NCBI GenBank assembly: GCA_019359505.1
Contig: JAHHHD010000023.1
Span: forward strand, 1 to 64,000
Source: Drouetiella hepatica Uher 2000/2452
Lineage (GTDB): Bacteria; Cyanobacteriota; Cyanobacteriia; Elainellales; Elainellaceae
Reading direction: 5' to 3'
DNA: 64,000 nucleotides
Below are positions 50,080-58,656 of the stretch, piece after piece (within the stretch, counting starts at the first letter, position 1; each line of letters begins with the position of its first letter). The notes beneath the pieces are model-generated. The model did no database searches. It was not told where the DNA came from and saw only the letters and a program-made list of their open reading frames with translations. A program made the position numbers and the translations under genes.

Positions 50080-51810
50080 GTGTATAAATGGTATTTGCCA
50101 ACGCTGAGTGAAATTATTGCCTTGGGTGAGATCATCCCAGGGAATCATTCTGGGCTAGAAGGCGTAAGACTGGAAAATATTGATGCAGATAGTGTTGATG
50201 TAGACATTGATCCACGAGAGCAAGACTCTAGAGCCGCCCATCGAAATTTTCGATCGCCAGCCCAGCAACAGTTGCGAGCCGAACGAGAGTGGAGTGGTGC
50301 GATCGCCGCTCTAAAGCGTCTCCTACAGCAGACCTTGGAAGTCAATCCCTTAGCAGCAGAAATGCGATCGGCGGGTGCTAGAGCAGCGAAACCTACCCGA
50401 CTGATTAGATCCATGAAACGAGCTAAATCTGCTCGATTAGCTCAGCCGAGCGCACCCTCTACGCAGGGAATTGTTCTGTCGGGGCCGTTTCCCATTTTGG
50501 ATCAGCCCGAACTGCTGGCTAACTTTTCTGCCTGGACTTTTACCATTGGCACGCCCGGTGAAATGCCGCTTCAGCTTTTGCCCTCCCCCCACGGAACTGC
50601 CGTCACCAATGTGCCCATTCCAACCCTGCCCCTGCTCTCTAGCGATCCGCTAGCTGCTGAGCAGTTTTGTCTGGCGCTGACGGCGACCTTTGGCGTGGTG
50701 CTAGTGCTGGGAGAAACGCCCCAAGGCGAACCCGCCTTTCTATTTTCGTTTGATCCCAACGTTGTGCAACAGGCTTGGCGATCGCTCCAGGCTCGTCTAA
50801 GAATGGTGGCTCCCTATGCTCTCCCGGCTCTGGATAGCTTAGTAGAACAGTTCGTGCCTAAAGCACCAGACTTTCGCATTGTTTCGCAGTTCAGTCGCCT
50901 CATGCTAGACGCTTTGCCCCATCCCTCTGATTTAGAGGAGCGATCGCAGACCGTCAGCCAGTCTTTGCAAGGAGTAGCGCAGTCGATCGGGCAAGCAGCA
51001 CTGCCCAACATCCCTGCTTTCTCTCAGGCAGTGCGCCAACCTGGAAAACCTCAGGGAGTACAGCCTGAAAAACGATCGCCCGCTGATTCAGGTTCTGATA
51101 CAGAGCTATTGCAGGCGATCGCCCATGAGGTGCGCACACCCCTGACCACCATTCGAACACTGACTCGATTGCTCTTGCGCCGTAAAGACCTCAATCCAGA
51201 TGTGCTCAAGCGGCTAGAGGTCATCGATCGAGAATGTACGGAGCAGATCGATCGGTTTAGTCTGATCTTTCGGGCTGTTGAGCTAGAGACGGATCAGGGC
51301 AAAAAATCTTTAGCATCCTTGGCTCCCATCTCGCTAGCCCAAGTGCTGCAACAGACAGTGCCCCGGTGGCAGCAGCAAGCACAGCAGCACAGCCACACGT
51401 TAGAAGTAGAGTGGCCCCAAAAGCTGCCGATGGTTGTTACCGATCCCACCATGCTGGATCAGGTGTTGACAGGATTGGTCGATCGCTTTACCCATAGTCT
51501 GCCCCCCGGTAGCCACATTCAAATGCAGGTGAGTCAGGCAGGGCATCAAATCAAGCTTCAGCTAGAATCTCATCCGCAGGTCAATACAGCCGAGATCCAG
51601 GGCAAAGCTAAGTTTGGCTTTAGTCCAGCGCTGAAGTCTTTGGGGCAATTGTTGATGTTTCAGCCTGAGACAGGCAATCTTAGCCTCAGCATGGCGGTAA
51701 CAAAAAACCTGTTCCAGGCATTGGGCGGCAAGATGATTGTGAAGCAAAGCCCTCACCAAGGCGAGGTGCTGACTATTTTCTTGCCCATCCTAGATAAGCC
51801 TGTAGGCTAA
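50080..51810 (+). CDS. Histidine kinase with degenerate ATP-binding domain
   Basis: A 576-residue cytoplasmic protein with no membrane helix. The middle (about 130-260) resembles a DICT/GAF-like sensory part, followed by a His-phosphorylation domain with the intact H-box LLQAIAHEVRTPLTTIRTLTRLLLR (about 343-367, His349). In the ATPase domain the N-box reads QVLTGLVDRF (about 461-470), where two asparagines expected are Gly and Arg; no D-x-G-x-G G1 box is found, and the G2 region is TGNLSLSMA (about 531-539) in place of G-T-G-L-G-L. It starts with GTG. The protein could be a phosphoacceptor or a kinase partner rather than an active kinase. Confidence 0.8.
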   Translation: MYKWYLPTLSEIIALGEIIPGNHSGLEGVRLENIDADSVDVDIDPREQDSRAAHRNFRSPAQQQLRAEREWSGAIAALKRLLQQTLEVNPLAAEMRSAGARAAKPTRLIRSMKRAKSARLAQPSAPSTQGIVLSGPFPILDQPELLANFSAWTFTIGTPGEMPLQLLPSPHGTAVTNVPIPTLPLLSSDPLAAEQFCLALTATFGVVLVLGETPQGEPAFLFSFDPNVVQQAWRSLQARLRMVAPYALPALDSLVEQFVPKAPDFRIVSQFSRLMLDALPHPSDLEERSQTVSQSLQGVAQSIGQAALPNIPAFSQAVRQPGKPQGVQPEKRSPADSGSDTELLQAIAHEVRTPLTTIRTLTRLLLRRKDLNPDVLKRLEVIDRECTEQIDRFSLIFRAVELETDQGKKSLASLAPISLAQVLQQTVPRWQQQAQQHSHTLEVEWPQKLPMVVTDPTMLDQVLTGLVDRFTHSLPPGSHIQMQVSQAGHQIKLQLESHPQVNTAEIQGKAKFGFSPALKSLGQLLMFQPETGNLSLSMAVTKNLFQALGGKMIVKQSPHQGEVLTIFLPILDKPVG

Positions 51811-53595: not shown

Positions 53596-56500
53596 CTAAG
53601 ACCGGACTGTTGTTTGATGAATTGGCAGTTCGATGACAAATTCTGCCCCTTGACCAGGCTCTGAGTAGCAAGCAAGCTTACCGTTGTGTTTCTCAGTAAT
53701 AATTTGATAGCTGATAGACAATCCAAGTCCTGTCCCTTTTCCCACACTTTTTGTAGTAAAAAACGGGTCGAACAAACGCTGTTGCAGCGCCTCTGGAATG
53801 CCAACGCCATTATCAGCAATATGAATAACAATCCACTCTGAGATACTCAGCTCAGTCCAGATCCGAATGATCCCAGGCTTTGCCTTGCTTTCTGCCGTTG
53901 ACCGCTGCTGATCATGCTCTTCTAAGGCATCGATCGCATTGGCAATTAAGTTCATAAATACCTGATTGAGTTGACCGGGGTAACATTCTACCAGTGGCAA
54001 TGAATCATAGTCTTTTTCAATTTGAATGCCGGGATGGGTTGGAGAGGGCTTAAGCCGATGGGACAGAATCATCAGTGTGCTATCAATGCCTTCATGAATG
54101 TTCACCAGTTTGAACGCTGCTTCATCCAAACGAGAAAAGTTGCGGAGTGACAAAACAATTTCTTGAATGCGATCTGTGCCATTTTGCATCGAGCTTACTA
54201 CTTTCTTCAAATCTTCGACTAGAAACTCAAGGTCGGCTTTTTGTAGTGCCTCTTCAATTTCTGGTACAGGTGGGCAGTGCTGCTGGTAGAGTTTGATCAG
54301 TTTCAGAAGTTCATTCGTGTATTCTTCGGCATGGGTGAGATTGCCATGAATGAAATTAATTGGGTTGTTAATTTCATGAGCTACCCCAGCAACTAACTGT
54401 CCTAAGCTCGCCAATTTCTCCGCCTGGACGATTTGAAGTTGGGTGTTTTGTAAATCTTGCAGTGCGATCGCCAGTTGATCTGCCTGAGTTTTGGTCTGAG
54501 CTAACAGATCGGATTGTTGCAACGCAATGCTGAGTTGATCAGCAACTTGCTTCACAAATTGCACTTCAATTTCTTCCCATTCACGCGGTTGAGTACATTG
54601 GTGGACACAGAGCAGTCCCCAAAGTTGATTACCTTTGACAATGGGAGCAACAAGCAGTGCTCGAATGCCGAACTGTTCCAGTGTCGCTCGATAACAGGCT
54701 TGAATTTCGGCTTGATCTAAATCTGTGAGCGTGTGAATGCGCCCTTTGATATATTCATCAACATAATTTTCACCAAAGCAGTGATCGTGAATTTTAGCGT
54801 TGAGCGCCGAGGGAAATCCAGCGACCACATCTTCTACAACAAACTCGCCATAATCAACGCCTAACTCTGGTTCAAAGCGATAGATGCCTACTCGATCGGC
54901 TTTGAGCGATCGGCGCACCCTAGTTGATATGTTGTTAAAAATGGTATCTAAGTCCAGCGAATCGCGGATTTTGGCAACCACCTCAAAGAGAATTTGGCGC
55001 TGCTCCGCCGCTTTTTGCAACTCCTCGGCTCGCTGGGTAGCAGACAAAAGCTCGGCGCTGTGAATGGCTACCCCAAGCTGTGCGCCAATTTGAGCTAAAA
55101 ATTCGACATCGACCGTTGCCCAGGCGCGGGGAGCCGAGTGTTGATAGGCAGCGAGTAAGCCCCACAGCCGCCGTCCCACAAAAATGGGGGCGATCGCGTA
55201 GGCGCAAATCTGATACTCTTCCAGAATTGCCATGTGACACCGAGAATGCCCGCTTTGGGAAACATCTGCGACCGCGAACGTTTCGTTCCGGCGATAGCGT
55301 CCGCCCTGAGTTTCCTGAAGATGAGTATCTTCCCAGACTAAATCTTTGCCAAAGGGGGCAATATGCTTCCACCCCGGCACCACCGTACCAAACTGCGCAA
55401 CAAACTCACCGCTCCAGTCTTCGTTAAATTGATAGACCGCAACTCGTTCCACTTCTAGCAGGTGGCGGGCTTCCTGACAGGTCGTTTGCAAAATTAAATT
55501 TACATCTAAAGAGGAACGAATGCGGCTGACGATTTCTGTGAGTGCTCGTTGGCGGGCGATCGAATTATTTAAGGCTTGAGTTCGCTGTTTCGATTCATCG
55601 AGTAGGGCGGTTTGCTGCACTGCAACCCCCAGTTGAGTGGCGGCTTGCGCCATGAATTGCACTTCGATCGCTTCCCACTGACGCGGTGCAGAATGCTGAT
55701 ACGCACCCAGCAATCCCCACAATTTCCGTCCCACAAAAATCGGAACCAAGGCATAGGATCGAATCTTAAATTGCCTGAGAATATCGAGGTGGCATTGAGA
55801 ATGTCCGGCTTGTTCTACATCAGCTACCGCAAAACTTTCATTGCGGCGATAGCGCCCCCCCTGAGTTTCTTGAAGGTGTGTGTCTTCCCACACGAGTTTT
55901 TTGCCAAACGGTGCGGTTTGTTCCCACTGATCGTCAGCCGCCCCAAAATGGCTAATAAACTCACCGCTCCAATCCAGGTTGAACTGATACACGGCGACAC
56001 GCTCCACGTTCAATAGCTGCCGCAGTTCTCGACAAGTTGTGTGAAAGATTGATGACATATCCAGTTCGGAACGGATCTTCGTCACTACTTCTGCCAGTGC
56101 CTGCTGCCGCGCTAAAGATTCCTTCAGGGCAAGGGATTGGGTTTGTAGCTGCCTAAATAATTCCGAGTGCTGCATTGCTACACCCAGATGGCTAGCAACT
56201 TGAGCCAGAAACTCAACTTCTGTTGCTTCCCATTGACGCGGTGCAGAATGCTGGTAGGCAGCCAGAAGCCCCCAAAGTTTCAGTCCATTGAAGATGGGAG
56301 CGATCGCATACGCCCGAATTTTAAATTGCTCCAGGATATCGATGTGACACCGAGAATGTCCGGCTTCATAGATGTCCGCCACGGCAAATGTTTCATTCGC
56401 ACGGTAGCGACCGCCTTTGGTTTCTTGCAGATAGGTGTCTTCCCACACCAGTTTTCTGCCAAACGGCGCAATCTGATCCCAATTGTGTTGAGCAAAGCCA

Positions 56501-56790
56501 AAACTGCTGACAAATTCTCCGCTGTAATCTGTATGGAAGCGATACACGGCAACGCGCTCCACATGCAGCAGTTGGCAGGTTTCTTGAGTGGTGGTAGCGA
56601 AGAGGCTGTCGAGATCGAGGGAGGCGCGAATTTTGCCAATCACATTGGCAAGGGCGGCATGTTGCTCTCGCGTTCGCTGAATCGTCTCACGTTCTCGCTT
56701 GATTTCTCCTCTCAAGCTGTCTACATCAGGCTGCCCTAAAGCTTGGTTGAGGCGCTTTCCCAGCCAACGAGCGATCGCTTTAGATTTCAT
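53596..56790 (-). CDS. Four-GAF cyanobacteriochrome histidine kinase
   Basis: A 1064-residue soluble light-sensor kinase. Three N-terminal GAF domains carry the red/green cyanobacteriochrome signature: L-V-W-E-D-T-x-L-Q-E-T (WED at 116-118, 301-303, 486-488) and bilin-binding Cys-His (148-149, 333-334, 518-519), the Cys spaced exactly 185 residues. A fourth GAF has DHCF (669-672, the DXCF second-cysteine motif) and Cys-Tyr at 699-700. Then come a coiled coil and a kinase core: H-box AHEINNPINFIHG with His805, N-box NLIANAIDAL (947-956), DNGVGI and GKGTGLGLSI (1017-1026), all intact. No receiver domain, PAS domain or membrane helix. I use ATG 56790; a TTG lies four codons upstream. Partner response regulator unknown. 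Confidence 0.93.
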   Translation of the reverse strand: MKSKAIARWLGKRLNQALGQPDVDSLRGEIKRERETIQRTREQHAALANVIGKIRASLDLDSLFATTTQETCQLLHVERVAVYRFHTDYSGEFVSSFGFAQHNWDQIAPFGRKLVWEDTYLQETKGGRYRANETFAVADIYEAGHSRCHIDILEQFKIRAYAIAPIFNGLKLWGLLAAYQHSAPRQWEATEVEFLAQVASHLGVAMQHSELFRQLQTQSLALKESLARQQALAEVVTKIRSELDMSSIFHTTCRELRQLLNVERVAVYQFNLDWSGEFISHFGAADDQWEQTAPFGKKLVWEDTHLQETQGGRYRRNESFAVADVEQAGHSQCHLDILRQFKIRSYALVPIFVGRKLWGLLGAYQHSAPRQWEAIEVQFMAQAATQLGVAVQQTALLDESKQRTQALNNSIARQRALTEIVSRIRSSLDVNLILQTTCQEARHLLEVERVAVYQFNEDWSGEFVAQFGTVVPGWKHIAPFGKDLVWEDTHLQETQGGRYRRNETFAVADVSQSGHSRCHMAILEEYQICAYAIAPIFVGRRLWGLLAAYQHSAPRAWATVDVEFLAQIGAQLGVAIHSAELLSATQRAEELQKAAEQRQILFEVVAKIRDSLDLDTIFNNISTRVRRSLKADRVGIYRFEPELGVDYGEFVVEDVVAGFPSALNAKIHDHCFGENYVDEYIKGRIHTLTDLDQAEIQACYRATLEQFGIRALLVAPIVKGNQLWGLLCVHQCTQPREWEEIEVQFVKQVADQLSIALQQSDLLAQTKTQADQLAIALQDLQNTQLQIVQAEKLASLGQLVAGVAHEINNPINFIHGNLTHAEEYTNELLKLIKLYQQHCPPVPEIEEALQKADLEFLVEDLKKVVSSMQNGTDRIQEIVLSLRNFSRLDEAAFKLVNIHEGIDSTLMILSHRLKPSPTHPGIQIEKDYDSLPLVECYPGQLNQVFMNLIANAIDALEEHDQQRSTAESKAKPGIIRIWTELSISEWIVIHIADNGVGIPEALQQRLFDPFFTTKSVGKGTGLGLSISYQIITEKHNGKLACYSEPGQGAEFVIELPIHQTTVRS

Positions 56791-57156: not shown

Positions 57157-58656
57157 TCATCGACTTTGCTCATGCCACTGGCGCGATCGCTCCCTGATCT
57201 CTGCCAATTCCCAGTCCGGCATTTTGTCCAGGTTTTTGAGGATGAAGCTCATGCGACCTTGAGATTGCAGGCTAGAACGGTGGCGATCGAGAAAATCCCA
57301 GTAGAAAAAGTTGAAGGGGCAGGCTTTTTCACCCGTGCGATCGGTGGGCTTGTAGCAGCAGCCTTTGCAGTAATCGCTCATCTTATTAATGTAGTTAGCA
57401 GAGGCGGCGTAGGGTTTGGAGGCAAGAATGCCGCCATCGGCAAACTGACCCATGCCAATGACGTTGGTTTGCATCACCCAGTCGTAGGCATCAATGAATG
57501 CCGCATGAAACCAATTCTCGACTTCTTGGGGCGACAGTCCGGCGATCAGCGCAAAGTTGCTCAAAATCATCAGCCGCTGAATGTGGTGAGCATAGGCTAT
57601 TTTTTCTGTCTGTTTTAAGGTCTGGTGTAGACAGTTCATGTCGGTGTCAGCATTCCAGAAAAACTCTGGCAAAGGCTGCGTGTGGTTGAAATGGTTGCGC
57701 TGCGGATAGTCTTCATCGACATAGTGATAGAGACCATGCATATATTCTCGCCAGCCCAAGACCTGCCGAATGAAGCCCTCGACGCTGCTGAGATCGAGCT
57801 GTTGCTGATGATAAGCCGCCTCAGCTGCCCGAATCACCTCCAGCGGATGCAGCAAGCCTAAGTTTAGATAGGGCGACAGCATGGCGTGCCACAGGGTTTC
57901 TTCGCCCGTTACCATCGCGTCTTGGTAGGGGCCAAACGCGGGGAGCCGCGTCTCAACGAAGTGTTGCAAAACCTGTAGAGCCTGCGATCGCCCTACTCCC
58001 CACCGAAACGGCTCCACCTCTCCATAGTCTGAGAAATCGCCTGACTTGACGAAATCAATCACCTCTTGCGTGATCGCATCTGGCTCAAACCACAGCGGCT
58101 CTGGCGTGTTGAGCTTGCCTTTTGGGGGCTTGCGGTTATCTTTATCAAAATTCCAGGTGCCGCCCACAGGATGCTTGCCCTCCATCAAAACCTGATCTCG
58201 CTGCCGCCCTTCTCGATAGAAATATTCCATTACCAGGCTCTTGCGACCCTTTGCCCAAGTTTGAAATTCCTCAGCCGTCCAGAGAAACTGGTTGTTCGGC
58301 ACCAAGGTGATTTTGCAGGGCAAATTGAGCGATCGAATCAGCTGGGCAAACGGGCGATCGCTGGGCTGCATTACTCGTAGCTCTGTAATGCCCTGGGTTT
58401 TAATCCAGTCTTGTAGCGCCGAGTCAAAATCGGGGGCGATCGCATACTCTACTGTCCAGCCTGACTGCCGCAGTTCTTCAGCAAAATGCCGCATTGCCGA
58501 CCAGACCAGCACTATTTTTTGCCGATGATAGGAGCGCGCCTGAACGTGCTGCATGGACTCGATCAGAATCACAGGCGCGTTCTGAGCAGTGACGCTTCTA
58601 AGAGCCGCCTGGTTAGCCGAAAGCTGATCGCCTAGTATCCAAACACCGATCGTCAT
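57157..58656 (-). CDS. FeS-type bacterial photolyase/cryptochrome (COG3046)
   Basis: A 499-residue flavoprotein of the FeS-BCP group, which includes the prokaryotic (6-4) photolyases PhrB and CryB. It starts with VWILGDQLSANQAAL, has KHPVGGTWNFDKDNRKPPK (about 161-179) and the FAD-binding region with GWREYMHGLYHY (about 298-309), NALIAGLSP-like NFALIAGLSPQEVENWFHAAFIDAYDWVMQTNVIGMGQFADGG, and four cysteines fitting the [4Fe-4S] ligands (NCLHQ, DYCKGC, KACPF). It repairs or senses UV lesions with light. In relatives a lumazine acts as antenna; F0 is an alternative. Same strand as the photoreceptor kinase but the genes are 354 bp apart. Confidence 0.93.
   Translation of the reverse strand: MTIGVWILGDQLSANQAALRSVTAQNAPVILIESMQHVQARSYHRQKIVLVWSAMRHFAEELRQSGWTVEYAIAPDFDSALQDWIKTQGITELRVMQPSDRPFAQLIRSLNLPCKITLVPNNQFLWTAEEFQTWAKGRKSLVMEYFYREGRQRDQVLMEGKHPVGGTWNFDKDNRKPPKGKLNTPEPLWFEPDAITQEVIDFVKSGDFSDYGEVEPFRWGVGRSQALQVLQHFVETRLPAFGPYQDAMVTGEETLWHAMLSPYLNLGLLHPLEVIRAAEAAYHQQQLDLSSVEGFIRQVLGWREYMHGLYHYVDEDYPQRNHFNHTQPLPEFFWNADTDMNCLHQTLKQTEKIAYAHHIQRLMILSNFALIAGLSPQEVENWFHAAFIDAYDWVMQTNVIGMGQFADGGILASKPYAASANYINKMSDYCKGCCYKPTDRTGEKACPFNFFYWDFLDRHRSSLQSQGRMSFILKNLDKMPDWELAEIRERSRQWHEQSR

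Follow-up and report, generated by a model that had tools for sequence, protein, structure and literature searches.

A 64,000-nucleotide stretch of the cyanobacterium Drouetiella hepatica Uher 2000/2452 (contig JAHHHD010000023.1; hereafter the window, meaning the whole stretch) carries a gene encoding four GAF domains in a row followed by a histidine kinase. We consider it probable that the product is an ancestral-type tandem cyanobacteriochrome sensor kinase of a widespread family, in which three red/green GAF domains of the XRG type and one blue-range GAF domain of the DXCF type each bind a bilin and jointly control the kinase. Comparison with its homologues distinguished two types of this protein, and we infer that the window protein represents the ancestral type with four chromophores, while the other type looks like a sister with a rewired last sensor and a rewired kinase coupling.

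Domain Organization of the Window Protein

The reading frame runs on the minus strand from an ATG at 56790 to a TAG ending at 53596 and encodes 1064 residues, and the single plus-strand frame across 53596-56790 is riddled with stops. Pfam matches on the protein comprise four GAF stretches, HisKA (27.5 bits, cut-off 26.9) and HATPase_c (92.8 bits), and the protein has the phospho-acceptor His and the ATP-binding boxes of a HisKA-type sensor kinase (HEINNP, DNGVGIP, and GTGLGL). An earlier reading of this DNA, made from the sequence only, had proposed a histidine kinase behind four bilin-type GAF domains with all chromophore attachment sites retained; the kinase motifs are indeed complete, and Cys148, Cys333, Cys518, and Cys699 are all present, together with Cys671 in the DHCF motif. 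Since no membrane helix is indicated in the window protein (highest 19-residue hydropathy 1.47), the description of the kinase as soluble is plausible too.

GAF1-3 Belong to the Red/Green Type

GAF1-3 carry WEDTxLQET and a Cys-His pair at Cys148, Cys333, and Cys518, both steps being 185 residues, as had been noted from the sequence. At the DNA level, WEDTxLQET has three matches in the window, all on the minus strand, and none in 100 shuffles. The motif WXDXXL, which defines XRG GAF domains (PMC11284453), is present as WEDTYL or WEDTHL at 116, 301, and 486, and each of the three domains has the canonical Cys and lacks the second Cys of the DXCF type, the sole D-x-C-F of the frame lying in GAF4. 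In a tree of 80 GAF domains with eight solved chains (17 of 81 proteins used; two short GAF matches of L094 dropped), GAF1-3 fell into one clade with 6bhn, AnPixJg2, Slr1393g3, and JSC1_58120g3 (support 100/99), bearing out their assignment to the red/green clade. The closest solved sequences to GAF1 and GAF3 are 6bhn and 3w2z, and in structural comparisons single window GAF domains of the AlphaFold2 model matched 3w2z and 5dfx. GAF1-3 are predicted to be XRG-type domains that bind phycocyanobilin and undergo a red/green photocycle.

Two further sites, a Phe on beta2 and a Phe on a helix, were located in the alignment by NpR6012g4 numbering, and both residues are present in GAF1 and GAF2. They hold the twisted photoproduct in red/green GAF domains, and loss of the helix Phe goes with red-shifted photoproducts (PMC6121604). 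The helix site of GAF3 is Tyr526 (window 55213-55215, minus strand) and is Phe in 58/58 homologues, so that a shifted photoproduct in GAF3 is possible.

GAF4 Is Probably of the DXCF Type and Is Proposed to Form a Unit With the Kinase

GAF4 has both the DXCF motif (DHCF 669-672, with Cys671) and a Cys-Tyr pair at Cys699, in agreement with the sequence-only reading; joint presence of a canonical and a second Cys is what defines DXCF GAF domains (PMC11284453). The expected placement of GAF4 in a DXCF clade stood in part, as GAF4 lies in a separate clade of 16 GAF domains that mostly carry D-x-C-F (support 99/95), with TePixJ outside it. The closest solved sequences to GAF4 are 6oap and 8k9o (RcaE). 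As a putative DXCF domain, GAF4 is predicted to isomerize its bilin to phycoviolobilin and to undergo a blue-range photocycle. The Cys-Tyr pair is common to seven of the ten family members with both Cys residues (window included) and also occurs in 6mgh, a chain of miRFP670nano, which is a fluorescent bilin protein.

The GAF4-kinase half stands alone in relatives. Of the set of GAF-kinase paralogues (L005-L030), 21 of 26 could be aligned, the others either having an internal stop (L013, L016, and L023) or matching another part (L020 and L028). All 21 have the canonical Cys and a spacing of 67 residues between GAF4 and the phospho-acceptor His, 18 have DHCF, and seven lie in frames of just 518-588 residues. 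Since the GAF4-kinase half resembles such short one-GAF DXCF kinases, we read it as a putative blue-range sensor kinase to which three red/green sensors would have been added upstream.

Distribution and Conservation of the Family

Named genomes were scanned with an alignment of four homologues as query, and the best 80 of 321 relatives were kept; 58 of these were full-length homologues scoring above 1000 bits, and the 22 named loci below 1000 bits were not taken as orthologues. Because only the best 80 were kept and the search patterns came from the XRG part, all family counts are lower bounds and are biased to proteins with XRG GAF domains. The 58 homologues comprise 50 from Nostocales, three from Leptolyngbyales, one from Pseudanabaenales, and four without an assigned order. 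In a sample of 117 genomes around that of the window organism (itself included), no more than two additional matches approached full length, at about 60% identity, and one match was shorter; the latter comes from a member of the window organism's own family and has one XRG and one DXCF GAF domain only. L086 of Oculatellaceae Prado106, on a contig shared with L004, is a short form of this kind, with one XRG and one DXCF GAF domain; its N-terminus resembles the start of GAF1 and its linker the end of GAF3. The frames of two homologues, L089 and L090, span just 654 and 693 residues and lack the kinase His box; these genes are either broken or misassembled. A possible orthologue in Nostoc punctiforme, NpR1597, was discarded because the literature assigns its GAF1 to the teal-DXCF and its GAF2 to the insert-Cys group (PMC5240096).

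Across the 59 proteins (the 58 homologues and the window protein), the Trp, Asp, and Cys of the XRG sites are kept in 59/59 for each of GAF1-3, and the Leu of WXDXXL in 57, 57, and 59 of 59. Linker lengths are also conserved (Table 1), and most of the remaining insertions and deletions of the XRG part are found in the segment from the first strand to WEDT. The GAF3-GAF4 linker of the window protein is one residue shorter than in 58/58 homologues, and this deletion coincides with the predicted helix break near residue 585.

The three red/green modules had been described as near-identical and as looking like products of recent tandem duplication, which our analyses contradict. GAF1, GAF2, and GAF3 share just 58-64% of residues (gap-free) and 59-65% of bases. 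Where residues are identical, their codons also agree in 53/114, 36/103, and 44/106 cases, against 43.3, 38.5, and 39.8 expected from independent choice at this gene's usage, so that synonymous codon sharing is near random, with the pair GAF1/GAF2 alone slightly above expectation. The same three modules occur in the 58 named homologues, and in ten other family members GAF1, GAF2, and GAF3 form separate positional clades (99/94, 100/99, and 96/89) within the family clade (100/99). From the random-like codons and these positional clades we conclude that the duplications are old and earlier than the spread of the family. A triplication in the window lineage only, modeled by forcing its three GAF domains into a single clade, lowers the likelihood by 21.7 log units and was weakly rejected in the approximately unbiased (AU) test (p 0.034). 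A second, parallel triplication in the window lineage was first suggested by window GAF1-3 lying outside the clades that GAF1, GAF2, and GAF3 form by position in other species, and was dropped: AU tests allowed positional orthology of window GAF1-3 (p 0.35, 0.29, and 0.42), the GAF1 domains of the window protein and L086 grouped weakly with the other GAF1 rows (53/28), and window GAF2 paired with window GAF3 at low support (79/55), and hence we claim no parallel expansion.

Two Types Differ in the GAF4 Anchor and in the Helix to the Kinase

With respect to GAF4, ten of the 59 proteins have both Cys residues, four only the canonical Cys, 35 only the DXCF Cys, and ten neither, and in all 45 proteins without the canonical Cys this residue is replaced by Pro. 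We label proteins with the canonical GAF4 Cys, including the window protein, type A, and those with Pro type B (L035, L037-L041, L043-L057, L060-L067, L069, L072-L074, L076, L078-L085, L087, L091, and L093). In a quick LG+G4 tree built without GAF4, the 45 Pro proteins form one clade with support 100.

The equivalent of Asp669 is kept in 45/45 type B proteins and that of Phe672 in 43/45, and the Pro is followed by His in 35/35 proteins with the DXCF Cys, compared to 2/10 without it. Among the 35 DXCF-only proteins the mean pairwise identity of GAF4 is 90.1%, against 87.9, 90.5, and 93.6% for GAF1-3. Since GAF4 is conserved like the neighboring GAF domains even though the canonical Cys is gone, we conclude that type B GAF4 is under constraint despite the loss of its usual anchor, a constraint that is read across limited divergence since 31 of the 45 proteins are from Nostocaceae. 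The predicted model of one type B GAF4 (predicted local distance difference test score, pLDDT, 84) shows a bilin-GAF fold, superposing on 6oap_A with Z 23.6 (root mean square deviation 1.7, 173 aligned residues). Cys728 and Cys732 of GAF4 (LLCVHQC) are kept in 55/55 proteins of three Cys groups, one of these being the ten proteins in which both bilin Cys residues are missing. Within type B, the history of the DXCF Cys takes four losses if only losses are admitted, while Fitch reconstruction gives two changes with the Cys absent at the base, and therefore a regain.

The distance from Trp738 to His805 is 67 residues in 14/14 proteins with the canonical Cys (window included) and 73 in 45/45 with Pro. 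The six additional residues of type B sit in the helix that leads from GAF4 to the phospho-acceptor His and correspond to -1 in the seven-residue repeat. The 67-residue spacing was found in 33/33 further junctions, namely in 21/21 GAF-kinase paralogues and in 12/12 other kinases with a recognizable His box (18 of the 22 left-out loci were examined; the box was recognizable in 12 and absent in six). Since these outgroup junctions all have 67 residues, the uninserted length is ancestral. The replacement of Cys by Pro and the insertion map as one event each to the same branch, which makes up 0.152 of a total branch length of 10.28. A joint origin is plausible, though not proved, since with one event each on one branch the link is suggestive and no statistical association. 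Types A and B coexist as sister copies in one or more genomes of good quality, as Calothrix parasitica NIES-267 carries both (L071 and L072); both are also carried by one Calothrix metagenome bin (L068 and L087).

A single added linker residue inverts the light response of the LOV kinase YF1 (PMC6798134), and altered linkers invert the response of phytochrome kinases in several registers, those of +3 and +6, counted from the parent kinases, being underrepresented in nature (PMC11164954). By analogy, the type B kinases may be inverted or retuned. A tentative and rather doubtful extension is that, on one branch, the canonical Cys gave way to an invariant Pro together with the six residues (-1 register), that GAF4 of type B would hold its bilin through the DXCF Cys alone or act as a non-canonical relay, and that the register shift would have altered how the kinase responds to the three red/green sensors, in sign or in gain, with the window protein as the unshifted four-chromophore counterpart. 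If so, the type A/B pair would be a natural experiment in the inversion of light kinases. No description of a natural GAF domain with the DXCF Cys alone, or of this kinase family, was recognized among the papers listed by searches of the open-license PMC library, which is weak evidence of absence as subscription journals mostly lie outside it.

TABLE 1 Coordinates of the kinase gene and of the domains and linkers it encodes (positions in the window).
Feature	Position	Strand	Basis
Four-GAF cyanobacteriochrome histidine kinase gene, 1064 residues (P0001)	53596..56790	-	Open frame and Pfam
GAF1, XRG type, about residues 46-205; WEDT 116-119, Cys148-His149, beta2 Phe93, helix Phe156	56176..56655	-	Motifs, Pfam, tree
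GAF1-GAF2 joining helix, residues 189-241; spacing kept in 57/59	56068..56226	-	AlphaFold2 model, alignment lengths
GAF2, XRG type, about residues 231-390; WEDT 301-304, Cys333-His334, beta2 Phe278, helix Phe341	55621..56100	-	Motifs, Pfam, tree
GAF2-GAF3 joining helix, residues 374-425; spacing kept in 59/59	55516..55671	-	AlphaFold2 model, alignment lengths
GAF3, XRG type, about residues 416-575; WEDT 486-489, Cys518-His519, beta2 Phe463, helix Tyr526	55066..55545	-	Motifs, Pfam, tree
GAF3-GAF4 joining helices, residues 559-610 (559-584 and 588-610), broken near 585-587	54961..55116	-	AlphaFold2 model, alignment
GAF4, DXCF type, about residues 599-760; DHCF 669-672 with Cys671, canonical Cys699-Tyr700	54511..54996	-	Motifs, Pfam, tree
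Long helix from GAF4 through the linker to the dimerization/phospho-acceptor helix, residues 740-838	54277..54573	-	AlphaFold2 model, alignment lengths
HisKA match, residues 796-823; phospho-acceptor His805 in HEINNP	54322..54405	-	Motif and Pfam
HATPase_c, residues 940-1057; DNGVGIP and GTGLGL boxes	53620..53973	-	Motif and Pfam

Gene Surroundings and Bilin Supply

No gene neighbor of the kinase is conserved, the largest neighbor cluster comprising nine of up to 62 loci, and an operon or partner deduced from synteny was rejected for this reason. Promoter-like sites were fewer than in shuffles (2 against a mean of 4.6) and terminator-like sites similar (6 against 4.8). A photolyase-related protein (PF04244; window 57157-58656, minus strand) is encoded directly upstream on the same strand and is not found beside the other loci, and a kinase-like protein at 50080-51810 (plus strand) has a HisKA match and no HATPase_c match in Pfam. 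The genome of the window organism has three matches to ferredoxin-dependent bilin reductases (PF05996; contigs C85:27499-28943 and C37:168358-169026), two of them adjacent, and can thus make bilins. Its 6.4 Mb also contain 70 GAF matches (PF01590), many in long frames.

A Model for Signal Integration and Its Alternatives

What we infer for chromophore binding, colors, signal route, and output of the window kinase is as follows. Each of the four GAF domains would bind a bilin at its own canonical Cys, and photo-isomerization in any of them would twist or shift a continuous coiled coil running through the linkers. The XRG array would act on the DXCF-GAF/kinase unit, which in turn would set the balance of kinase to phosphatase activity at His805. 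In the AlphaFold2 model of the full protein (pLDDT 74), the four GAF domains sit on long helices, which fits signal flow through coiled coils; regularly spaced tandem GAF domains and coiled-coil signaling are already in print (PMC6798134). As the three red/green sensors are near-equivalent, the output would likely join a blue-range reading to a measure of red/green ratio or of intensity, and would not distinguish four colors. The sequence-only reading had envisaged that several light colors might be integrated; this is less clear than it was put there, and with three of four sensors predicted to be of the same red/green kind the protein may read two color channels, or intensity, instead of four colors.

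Several observations weigh against this model. The predicted template modeling score of the full model is low (0.31), so that domain packing is not fixed by it, and across up to 62 loci no response regulator is conserved beside the kinase. The canonical Cys of GAF4 is followed by Tyr and not by His, and TePixJ, the DXCF reference of known color, forms a long branch outside the GAF4 clade, although a tree in which it joins that clade was not rejected (p 0.49). The window protein itself lies on a long branch with an unsure position within the family, and no chromophore or kinase data on it were found in the literature searched.

The most serious competitor concerns what the red/green array reports. 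The three XRG GAF domains could be redundant intensity ("power") sensors with differing dark-reversion rates instead of color integrators, as all three have an identical motif set, fast-reverting red/green GAF domains are described as likely power sensors (PMC6121604), and GAF3 of the window protein alone has Tyr at the helix-Phe site; conservation alone does not tell the two readings apart, and we regard this as a real but lesser possibility. That only the XRG array senses light and GAF4 relays between sensors and kinase, as GAF4 seems to do in a large part of the family, would agree with the family counts, as the canonical GAF4 Cys is absent from 45/59 proteins and both Cys residues from ten, compared to 59/59 retention of the Cys in GAF1-3. 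However, the window GAF4 retains both Cys residues, Asp669, and Phe672, and the canonical Cys is kept in 21/21 related GAF-kinase paralogues, making a pure relay unlikely for the window protein. Least probable in our view is that some XRG GAF domains carry phycoerythrobilin in the cell and therefore respond to other colors or do not switch. The three bilin reductase matches, two adjacent, would permit it, and phycoerythrobilin was bound with very high efficiency by SPI1085g2, a red/green GAF domain from a different kinase with four GAF domains (PMC9705869), but the motifs fit phycocyanobilin binding and the reductase matches are assigned at the level of PF05996. We retain the tandem sensor kinase with four bilin-binding GAF domains as the preferred reading.

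This family bears on how serial light sensors talk to one kinase. Its natural type A/B pairs (in two cases from a single genome, of which one is a metagenome bin) differ in the GAF4 anchor and in the length of the kinase helix; since engineered light kinases can invert on a change of linker length (PMC6798134, PMC11164954), such pairs would offer a test of this inversion on natural proteins. Moreover, the 35 homologues with the DXCF Cys only raise the question of whether a cyanobacteriochrome can hold its bilin by the second Cys alone.

Comparison With Known Systems

Among single domains, NpR6012g4 (6bhn) and AnPixJg2 (3w2z) share WEDTHLQET and Cys-His with GAF1 and GAF3, but by their names both chains come from methyl-accepting chemotaxis proteins and not from kinases. 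Slr1393g3 (5dfx) is, like GAF1-3, an XRG GAF domain of a histidine kinase, with 51-54% identity in the structural match; in the Slr1393 kinase only GAF3 is known to bind bilin. GAF4 shares the D-x-C-F motif and the canonical Cys with the TePixJ GAF domain (3vv4, 4glq) and other DXCF GAF domains, and differs from TePixJ in having Cys-Tyr in place of Cys-His.

Of the studied cases that we found, the closest is a Spirulina subsalsa protein, SPI1085, which has four GAF domains and a histidine kinase and whose GAF2 and GAF3 bind phycocyanobilin (PMC6121604, PMC9705869). Locus L092, a frame of 1049 residues with 44% identity to the window protein in the best segment, comes from S. subsalsa FACHB-351, the strain from which SPI1085 DNA was cloned, and is probably the SPI1085 gene. 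It resembles the window protein in having four cyanobacteriochrome GAF domains in a row before the kinase and a 67-residue spacing from GAF to His. In contrast, its D-x-C-F GAF domain comes first, whereas that of the window protein comes last, its kinase-adjoining GAF domain is XRG-like with an insert and without the motif Trp, and a receiver domain is reported for SPI1085 (PMC6121604). Tandem cyanobacteriochrome kinases are thus already known, and the window protein adds another.

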